From an uncultured Methanomicrobiales archaeon (GTDB lineage: Archaea > Halobacteriota > Methanomicrobia > Methanomicrobiales > Methanospirillaceae), in the NCBI GenBank assembly GCA_949320185.1, contig CASGHK010000047.1:1-64000 (forward strand): DNA of 64,000 nt, in the 5' to 3' direction. Positions 44,983 through 46,910 of this stretch are shown one piece after another; position 1 is the first letter of the stretch; each line of letters starts with the position of its first letter. The translations under genes and the position numbers were made by a program. The notes under the pieces are model-generated. The model saw only the letters and a program-made list of their open reading frames with translations, was not told the DNA's origin and ran no database searches.

Positions 44983-45489
44983 TCAGAGATAATCGGCCTG
45001 GACCGCGACGACCTCGGTGGAGTCGGCGGCGGCTGCGTACCGCTCGAGGAGCTCCTGGTTCAGGACCAGGAAGTGGGGTCCCCAGCGGAACGCGTTCATC
45101 AGGGCCCGGGCTTGCTCGGGCTCGCCCAAGATCCAGCAGGCGGCGGAGAGCGCCTCCGCCGAGGAGAGGCGGAGGGGCCGACCGTAGTTGGTCGGGTTCG
45201 CCGCGACCAGGTATGGAAGGGCCCTGTGGTGGCGCCAGTGTGCGAAGACACCGGCGTCTAGCACCTCCCAGGAACAGTCGAGGGCGGTCACCGAGCGGAT
45301 CGCCCCCCCCTTCACCGGCGCGTCGGCCGGCGAAAGGGCCTGCTCGGCGGTGGGGTCCAGCACGAGCGTCGACCGCGGCACCCGCTCAGGCCGGTCCAGG
45401 ACACGGACGAGGCCGGCCCGCCCGAGCCGGACCACCGTGCACTTTTTTGGAGCGCAGGTGTTGTCACGGTAGGCAAGGAGGGGGATCAT
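44983..45489 (-). CDS. tsr3: Tsr3-type rRNA aminocarboxypropyltransferase (DUF367)
   Basis: 168 aa, family length. Conserved 'CAPKKCTVVRLGRAGLV' N-terminus, 'LSPADAPVK', the SAM/aminocarboxypropyl signature 'VTALDCSWEV', 'RALPYLVAANPTNYGRPLRLSSAEALSAACWILG' and 'NAFRWGPHFLVLNQELLERY'. Tsr3 transfers the 3-amino-3-carboxypropyl group from SAM to the hypermodified uridine of small-subunit rRNA. It is divergent from the 45519 gene with only 29 bp between starts, so the two promoters overlap. Confidence 0.92.
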   Translation of the reverse strand: MIPLLAYRDNTCAPKKCTVVRLGRAGLVRVLDRPERVPRSTLVLDPTAEQALSPADAPVKGGAIRSVTALDCSWEVLDAGVFAHWRHHRALPYLVAANPTNYGRPLRLSSAEALSAACWILGEPEQARALMNAFRWGPHFLVLNQELLERYAAAADSTEVVAVQADYL

Positions 45490-45518: not shown

Positions 45519-46394
45519 ATGTACGTGCTCGCCGCCCCATGCCTTCTCGACCCCTCCCTTCGGGCCGAGGGGATCACCTCGGACGAAGACCGGGCGGCCT
45601 TCGCCCGGGCGCTCGAGCGCTGCGCCGAGTTCGGGATCGAGGTCGTCCCCCTCCCCTGCCCCGAGACCCTCCACCTGGGCCGTCCCCGTCCCCCGGGTCC
45701 GTTCCGGGGCCGGCTCGACACGCCGGGTTTCGAGGCGCTCCTCGACCGCCTCGAGGAGGAGGTCCGGGCACTGATCGCCGGGCGGGGCCCGCCGCTCTGC
45801 ATCGTTGGAGTCGACTCCTCCCCCTGCTGCGGGGTCAACCGGCACTTCTTCGATGAGGACCGTCAGCCCGGGAGGGGGACATGGCTCGCCCGGTTCTCCG
45901 CGATCCCCGCCGTCGACGTACATACGTTCGCATGCTACCGTCTCTACCTCGCTGCCCCGCTCTTTTCGGCAGCCGAACGGGAGTTCAACGCCCGGCTCGC
46001 TGTGTTCCTCCGGGAGCGGCACTACCGGGTCGTTCTCCCCCAGGAGCTCGGGGACGACGAAGCCGTCCGGGGCGAGGGGGAGCTGTACCAGCTCTACGAC
46101 CGCCTCGTCGCCGGGCTCGAGGGGGCCGACGTCGTCGTCGCGGTGATCGACGGCGCGGACGCCGATTCGGGGACCGCCTGGGAGATGGGGTACGCCACCG
46201 CCCGGTCCTTTCCGGTGATCGCGCTCAGGACCGACTTTCGGCGGGTTGGGGACCACGAGCGGGTCAACCTGATGCTCGAGTGTTCGTCAACGATCGCCGG
46301 CTCGTTCGACGAGCTGGCAGCTCTGCTCGGAGAACGGTTGGATAAGCAAGAAAAGGGGGGTTACCAGGCCTCGGGGAAGGCCATGTTGGTGTAG
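45519..46394 (+). CDS. Fusion: TudS/DUF523-like desulfidase domain + nucleoside 2-deoxyribosyltransferase domain
   Basis: 291 aa from the ATG at 45519 (MYVLAAPCLLDPSLRAEG); the earlier track start overlaps tsr3 antisense. Residues 1-135: 'PCLLDPSLRAEG', 'FGIEVVPLPCPETLHLGRPR', 'VGVDSSPCCGVN' with spaced cysteines, resembling TudS-related (CD3072-like, DUF523-related) putative desulfidases that use a [4Fe-4S] cluster. Residues about 145-280: 'VYLAAPLFSAAEREFN' equivalent (RLYLAAPLFSAAEREFN), 'VVVAVIDGADADSGTAWEMGYATA' and 'VIALRTDFR', the nucleoside 2-deoxyribosyltransferase fold with catalytic Glu in 'GTAWEMG'. The fusion suggests salvage of a sulfur-containing base or nucleoside: desulfuration plus glycosidic transfer. 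Each domain is recognisable; the joint function is inference. Confidence 0.8.
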   Translation: MYVLAAPCLLDPSLRAEGITSDEDRAAFARALERCAEFGIEVVPLPCPETLHLGRPRPPGPFRGRLDTPGFEALLDRLEEEVRALIAGRGPPLCIVGVDSSPCCGVNRHFFDEDRQPGRGTWLARFSAIPAVDVHTFACYRLYLAAPLFSAAEREFNARLAVFLRERHYRVVLPQELGDDEAVRGEGELYQLYDRLVAGLEGADVVVAVIDGADADSGTAWEMGYATARSFPVIALRTDFRRVGDHERVNLMLECSSTIAGSFDELAALLGERLDKQEKGGYQASGKAMLV

Positions 46395-46816
46395 ATATCC
46401 TCGAGCCGGGCCTTGTGCCCACGCTCCATCGCGGCAAGCTCGGTGAAGAGCTTCTTCTGCTCGGCGTCTTCGGTCGCGTTCGCGAGACCGGTGTACATCT
46501 GCATCGCCTCGAGTTCCTTCTTGATCGCGAGGACCAGGCCGTCGATCGGCTTCAGGTCGGGGGTGAACGGCGGGGATGCCACCGAATCGGCGACCTTGTA
46601 GTCCCTGGTGGTCGAGAAGCCGAGCGAGGTGTAGTCCTTTGTCAGCATCTTCTGGAGGAACTCACGGTGGCTGGTCTCGTCTCCGGCCAGCTCCTTGAAG
46701 AGCGACTTCAGGTTCGCATCCTGGACCTTCTCAGCGACCGTGTTGTAGAACGAGTAGGCCTCGACCTCGCGATCGATCGCCAGTGTGATGATCTTGCGGT
46801 ATTCTTCTGGAGTCAT
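46361..46816 (-). CDS. Ferritin-like/rubrerythrin-type diiron protein
   Basis: 151 aa from the ATG at 46816 with GGAGG 13 nt upstream; the track start is 13 codons earlier. A four-helix bundle with two ExxH-type motifs: 'EVEAYSFYNTVAEK ... DETSHREFLQKM' and 'KKELEAMQMYTGLANAT ... AMERGHKARLEDIY'. It lacks the rubredoxin CxxC domain of full rubrerythrins. It probably handles peroxide or iron in the cytosol. Its 3' end overlaps the end of the convergent 45519 gene by 34 bp. The TATA-like ATTAAATATCC lies about 45-55 nt upstream of the ATG. Confidence 0.88.
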   Translation of the reverse strand: MTPEEYRKIITLAIDREVEAYSFYNTVAEKVQDANLKSLFKELAGDETSHREFLQKMLTKDYTSLGFSTTRDYKVADSVASPPFTPDLKPIDGLVLAIKKELEAMQMYTGLANATEDAEQKKLFTELAAMERGHKARLEDIYTNMAFPEAW

Positions 46817-46910
46817 GACTAATGACAACCTCCGTTGCAAACTACTGTTCTGCATCGGGATATTTAATTGAATGGTATCGTCAGTTTGATACGGCTACCT
46901 CAACGACGAC

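Follow-up and report, generated by a model that had tools for sequence, protein, structure and literature searches.

A desulfidase-like domain fused to a deoxyribosyltransferase-like domain

The stretch of DNA analysed here (the window; 64,000 nucleotides from a contig of an uncultured Methanomicrobiales archaeon) contains a gene whose product, beginning with MYVLAAPC, joins a TudS-like desulfidase domain to a domain related to nucleoside 2-deoxyribosyltransferases (NDTs; Table 1). The gene is arranged back-to-back with tsr3 and runs towards a rubrerythrin/ferritin-like gene; a rubrerythrin-type gene adjoins the fusion in the same genus only.

Table 1. Features of the fusion locus; positions are those of the window.
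Feature	Position	Strand	Basis
Fusion gene (TudS-like desulfidase domain + NDT-like domain), 291 aa	45519..46394	+	ORF call, profile matches, orthologues
TudS/DUF523-like domain, residues 1-138	45519..45932	+	NF045597 1.3e-9; model pLDDT 96; Foldseek; hhalign
Cys8, predicted cluster ligand (= TudS Cys10)	45540..45542	+	Invariant in 28 fusions and in 39 fused + separate homologues
Cys47-Pro-Glu49; Cys47 = predicted cluster ligand (TudS Cys43), Glu49 = catalytic Glu (TudS Glu45)	45657..45665	+	Both invariant in 39 sequences; aligned to RudS Cys/Glu
Ser100-Ser101-Pro-Cys103-Cys104-Gly; Ser101 = TudS Ser101, Cys104 = predicted cluster ligand (TudS Cys104)	45816..45833	+	Residue counts, 112 fusions
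NDT-like domain, residues 140-275	45936..46343	+	PF05014 1.7e-22; Foldseek 7o62, 8rh3
Leu196 at CtNDT Asp62/LlNDT Asp72 position; Asp lost	46104..46106	+	Alignment to 7o62, 7m5h, CtNDT
Glu222, predicted glycosyl nucleophile (CtNDT E88)	46182..46184	+	Invariant, 112/112
Asn250-Leu-Met252, NLM motif	46266..46274	+	Invariant in 28-fusion alignment; motif in 110/112
tsr3, 16S rRNA aminocarboxypropyltransferase family, divergent neighbour	44983..45489	-	PF04034 2.8e-42, NF002621 1.9e-57
29-bp intergenic region separating fusion and tsr3 start codons	45490..45518	.	Coordinates
Rubrerythrin/ferritin-like gene, convergent with fusion gene, 34 bp overlap	46361-46855	-	

Profile searches assigned the C-terminal half to the NDT superfamily, with PF05014 matching residues 142-245 at an E-value of 1.7e-22 (80.2 bits; gathering cut-off 28.8) and PF15891 matching as well (1.6e-13). 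The best family match of the N-terminal half was NF045597, the 'CD3072 family TudS-related putative desulfidase', over residues 3-126 (1.3e-9). At 37.9 bits, far under the cut-off of 130, this match marks the N-domain as a distant relative; separate archaeal homologues reached about 94-125 bits and complete fusions about 30-68, all below 130. The window protein did not match PF04463 (DUF523) at E<1, and several orthologues did, two of them in family f6 at or above the gathering score. The same architecture recurs in at least 112 distinct loci and the divergent arrangement with tsr3 is conserved; thus, the fusion is a real gene and neither a chance ORF nor an assembly chimera.

An AlphaFold2 model of the whole protein, built with 28 orthologues, had a mean pLDDT of 86.8, with low confidence for the last 17 residues. 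The best 50 PDB matches in Foldseek all belonged to the NDT superfamily, led by DpNDT (7o62; 4.8e-9) and including CtNDT (8rh3) at 2.6e-7, with DNPH1 and MilB further down. As these matches covered the NDT half only, the N-domain was modelled alone from an alignment of 28 fused and 11 unfused homologues (pLDDT 96.3). In this case, TudS (6z93; E-value 6.2e-5, probability 1.0) was alone among PDB structures in passing the threshold of E<=0.001; the second-best structure had an E-value of 0.029. Moreover, hhalign aligned the N-domain profile with the TudS domains of 14 RudS proteins of the Methanomicrobiales at an E-value of 4.5e-7, placing the three Cys residues, the Glu of the CPE motif and the Arg in register. 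The first-pass annotation had read the protein as a TudS-like domain ahead of a complete NDT domain, and this architecture is borne out by the structural match to 6z93, the PF05014 match and the intact E222.

Two other identities were considered and rejected. The protein is not RudS, the TudS-DUF1722 eraser of s4U in tRNA (PMC11417400): both combine a TudS-type domain with an additional C-terminal module, but the partner in the fusion is an NDT domain instead of the tRNA-binding DUF1722, and the genome has its own, separate gene for RudS. A role in anti-phage defence (NDT/TIR-like) was dropped because no PADLOC model matched at E<=0.1. The separate RudS gene (L001:940-1950, minus strand; G000:C52:38847-39266) encodes SPTSG in place of SPSCG, which turns the third cluster Cys into Ser. 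This variant occurs in many RudS proteins of the order Methanomicrobiales, whereas the fusion retains all three Cys residues.

The N-domain retains the cluster ligands of TudS and differs at the second serine

In TudS, the catalytic set comprises Cys10, Cys43, Cys104, Glu45, Ser101, Ser103 and Arg17 (PMC10611767), to which RudS adds Arg60 (PMC11417400). Across 39 fused and separate homologues, C8, C47, C104, E49, S101 and R15 were invariant and R57, the equivalent of RudS Arg60, nearly so. Cys at position 104 was found in all 112 fusions. With C8, C47 and C104 kept and TudS as the only significant structure match, the Cys triad looked for in this domain is in place, and the N-domain is predicted from these residues to bind a [4Fe-4S] cluster.

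The position of TudS Ser103 behaved differently. It was occupied by Thr in 68, Ala in 18, Cys in 14, Ser in six and Val in six of the 112 fusions, Cys being the residue of the window protein, while position 100 was Ser in every fusion. The pattern was reversed in 14 separate homologues of the NF045597 type, which all carried Ser at position 103 and K, G or H at position 100. From this reversal we infer that the second catalytic serine may have shifted from 103 to 100 in the fusions. In addition, the position of Tyr18, which stacks on the base in TudS, is Ala16 in the window protein. Compared with the stand-alone DUF523 4-thio-UMP/thiouracil desulfidase TudS (6z93/6z96; PMC10611767), the fusion thus shares the fold, the three cluster Cys residues, the catalytic Glu, Ser101 and the phosphate-binding Arg, but it is only ~22% identical, lacks a conserved Ser103, has Ala for Tyr18 and carries a second domain. 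The original assignment as a TudS-like domain holds for the fold and the Cys residues, and Glu49 and Ser101 agree with it; it has to be narrowed with respect to Ser103, as the N-domain diverges from its sister TudS and does not conserve the second catalytic serine.

The NDT domain lacks an aspartate proposed to clash with ribose

Like CtNDT, DpNDT (7o62) and LlNDT, the fusion has the NDT fold with its Tyr, Asp, nucleophilic Glu and NLM motif. Y143, D216, E222, N250 and M252 were invariant in the alignment of 28 fusions, and E222 and D216 (equivalent to CtNDT D82) were present in 112/112. The NLM motif binds the 5'-OH of the nucleoside and is typical of NDTs rather than of NMP glycosidases (PMC7308715). 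The fusion departs from the characterized enzymes at the position of CtNDT D62/LlNDT D72, which was located by alignment to PDB NDTs including the CtNDT D62N mutant (8pqp). Here, N was found in 51, H in 48, L in eight, C in four and D in a single one of 112 fusions; separate NDTs in genomes of families f8, f29 and f21 have C or N.

In CtNDT, the ribosyl intermediate has its 2'-OH at a distance of 2.6 A from D62, and a clash has been proposed; the D62N variant keeps ~50% of the catalytic efficiency and shows raised nucleoside hydrolysis (PMC10913048). As this Asp is replaced in 111 of 112 fusions, it is reasonable, but not certain, to predict that the NDT half accepts ribonucleosides and leans towards hydrolysis. 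The uncertainty stems from the LlNDT Y7F/D72N double mutant, which performed worse, not better, with ribonucleosides (PMC11647913). A natural precedent is AvNRT, the N-ribosyltransferase of Archaeoglobus veneficus, an archaeal member of the same family that is natively active on ribonucleosides (PMC7308715). AvNRT has Phe7 and retains Asp62, whereas the fusion retains the Tyr, regarded as a 'deoxy' marker under the Tyr/Phe rule (PMC7308715), and has lost the Asp. The initial label 'deoxyribosyltransferase' thus probably names the wrong sugar, given that the Asp disfavouring 2'-OH substrates is replaced. Taken together, the data establish that both active sites are largely intact within a conserved two-domain architecture.

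The fusion is widespread in one archaeal order

Matches to the fusion were obtained in 92 of 101 relatives searched; among the 79 genomes with a completeness of 90% or more, 77 matched. Orthologues that were aligned are 45-81% identical to the window protein. The matches listed, 80 of 186 in a search reaching outside the phylum, include Methanoregulaceae, Methanoculleus, Methanofollis, Methanocorpusculum, Methanocalculus, Methanogenium and Methanospirillum and relatives, taxa that identify the order as Methanomicrobiales. Among 296 genomes across the phylum, no protein outside this order spanned both domains among the matches listed; in other families of the phylum, NDT-like and TudS-related proteins are encoded by separate, unlinked genes. 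The fusion is near-universal in good Methanomicrobiales genomes, and the halves are separate elsewhere in the phylum sample. Viral contigs contained no fusion and one NDT-only relative.

In phylogenetic trees, all fused N-domains, together with a derivative in genome G007, were set apart from the separate ones (support 100/98), and NDT-only proteins of family f3 fell among the fused NDTs with weaker support (80/77). These f3 proteins (genomes G062, G072, G087 and G097; L170, L171, L172 and L173) are encoded near tsr3 and consist of the NDT half, the desulfidase half being missing. Conversely, G007 kept the desulfidase half only and has an unrelated new tail in place of the NDT half (L174:2025-2765 and L174:862-1803, both minus strand, comprise this gene and its NcsA-like neighbour). 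The trees are consistent with one fusion event and later losses of either half. In the single-contig genome G016, the copy at L175:1967-2933 (minus strand) carries a frameshift within the NDT half, which reflects either a sequencing error or real decay.

Among reported architectures of the TudS family, stand-alone TudS accounts for 58.9% and TudS-DUF1722/RudS for 40.1% (PMC11417400), and no description of a DUF523-deoxyribosyltransferase fusion was found in the literature searched. The fusion is best regarded as a third architecture of the TudS superfamily beside TudS and RudS.

Neighbouring genes

The tsr3 gene was divergent from the fusion in 60/60 first loci, which represent 47 distinct proteins. 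Among 80 named loci, the divergent arrangement was found in 77, with a start-to-start gap of 29-36 bp in 65 of these 77. No other neighbour was strongly conserved in the neighbourhood survey, and in the tested genomes outside the order tsr3 was near neither half. Tsr3 transfers an aminocarboxypropyl group, not sulfur. Shared promoter control is the most likely reason for the pairing. The first-pass annotation had cited the back-to-back position in favour of thiolated-nucleoside salvage; the neighbour is real and conserved, but it is no evidence for such a role, as Tsr3 adds no sulfur and is unlinked outside the order.

Better context evidence for salvage of thiolated RNA comes from NcsA near separate desulfidase homologues. 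In family f8, 7/7 loci from two genera had an NcsA-like gene no more than about 2 kb away from the separate desulfidase gene; those NcsA-like genes that were scanned scored above the TIGR00269 cut-off. In G007, the derivative without an NDT half directly adjoins another NcsA-like (tRNA 2-thiolation) gene. Because loci of a family share ancestry, these count as two independent associations, not eight. In family f21, the separate NDT gene adjoins lysS and lies near pyrE. There, the separate TudS-related gene adjoins a gene for a PurP-like formate-AICAR ligase in 3/3 loci (L185, L189, L232). The source genome itself encodes the s4U synthase ThiI and the s4U eraser RudS.

A putative salvage enzyme for sulfur-modified RNA nucleosides

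We tentatively propose, with confidence a little short of even, that the fusion acts in the cytosol to salvage RNA nucleosides that carry sulfur modifications. In a first step, C8, C47 and C104 would hold a [4Fe-4S] cluster with one iron left free. A thiolated pyrimidine derived from tRNA turnover (type s4U, s2U or s2C) would bind to this iron through its thiocarbonyl sulfur. The sulfur would then be exchanged for water with the aid of E49, R57 and S101, possibly also S100, and the sulfide would stay on the cluster, as in TudS. In a second step, E222 of the NDT domain may attack C1' and free the base. Replacement of the Asp by N, H, L or C should permit ribose and favour hydrolysis, so that base and ribose would go to salvage. 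As to the likely substrates, the evidence speaks more for ribonucleosides derived from RNA than for deoxyribonucleosides, and more for thiolated pyrimidines than for other compounds of sulfur. Salvage of thiolated nucleosides, as suggested at the outset, is still the most plausible use in a genome with ThiI and RudS.

Several observations support this proposal. The Cys triad, Glu and Arg are positioned as in TudS and RudS, and TudS is the one significant structural match of the N-domain. The NDT half retains its nucleophilic Glu, the Asp and the NLM motif, and the near-universal loss of the D62 equivalent can be read against the published CtNDT data (PMC10913048) and the ribonucleoside activity of a natural archaeal homologue (PMC7308715). 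The NcsA-like genes near the f8 desulfidases and beside the G007 derivative, the presence of ThiI and RudS, and the location of the f21 NDTs near pyrE and lysS point in the same direction. Other observations weaken it. Ser103 is Ala, Val or Cys in 38/112 fusions, although the equivalent Ser113 is essential in RudS; the base-stacking Tyr is Ala16; the 'deoxy' marker Tyr143 is kept (PMC7308715); and the LlNDT double mutant argues against a simple gain of ribonucleoside activity (PMC11647913). Moreover, f3 retains the NDT half only and G007 the desulfidase half only, so the halves can act apart, and the separate NDT clade is also represented in f8 genomes in which no desulfidase partner was detected.

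We consider an alternative rather unlikely: two independent salvage activities, a TudS-like 4-thio-UMP/thiouracil desulfidase and an ordinary purine/pyrimidine (ribo)nucleoside transferase/hydrolase, may have been fused for co-expression only, with no shared substrate or channeling. The halves are indeed encoded far apart in the genomes of other archaea, either one is kept alone in some lineages, and the conserved R15 (TudS phosphate-binding Arg17) suggests nucleotide substrates, whereas the NLM motif suggests nucleosides. Against this stand the near-universal fusion within the order, which suggests a benefit of linkage, and the prediction of RNA-derived modified nucleosides from both halves.

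A more specific version of the salvage proposal, doubtful at present, sees a dedicated recycling enzyme for tRNA thiolation with both active sites reworked. The TudS-type serine would have moved from 103 to 100 for a different thio-base of the 2-thiouridine type, which would agree with the presence of NcsA next to relatives of the fusion, and the NDT centre would have become a ribonucleoside hydrolase through loss of the Asp by the 2'-OH. In Methanomicrobiales, the fusion would then stand opposite NcsA as its eraser/salvage counterpart.

The same NcsA-like genes, repeatedly found nearby, and the loss of the second catalytic serine could also speak for a sulfur carrier. Here the N-domain, its cluster in a [4Fe-5S] state, would serve NcsA or other enzymes of tRNA thiolation as a donor or acceptor of sulfide rather than act as a hydrolytic desulfidase, with the NDT half recognising the nucleoside. 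We regard this as improbable: E49, R57 and S101, which activate water in TudS/RudS, are conserved, and the new invariant Ser100 could stand in for Ser103. Disfavoured, and very improbable, is a gene pair coupling acp transfer by Tsr3 to cleavage of the resulting 5'-methylthioadenosine (MTA) by the NDT half. Transfer of acp yields MTA, a sulfur ribonucleoside, and the divergent pairing with tsr3 is order-wide; however, the invariant D216 and N250 bind a 5'-OH that MTA does not have, PF01048 proteins (the MTA/nucleoside phosphorylase family) occur in 61/61 genomes, TudS works on C=S and not on thioethers, and outside the order both halves are unlinked from tsr3. Finally, a degenerating relic without a catalytic role is hardly credible, as the catalytic residues are invariant in 112 divergent orthologues, even though the frameshifted copy (L175), the half-losses in f3 and G007 and the drift at the TudS Ser103 position may be taken as signs of decay.

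If the salvage proposal is right, an order-wide link between desulfuration and glycosidic-bond cleavage would give these archaea a disposal route for thiolated nucleosides, and the fusion would hint at what the uncharacterised CD3072 family acts on. In addition, the NDT half varies naturally at the D62 position, so that the determinants of ribo- versus deoxyribonucleoside use in NDTs become directly testable.
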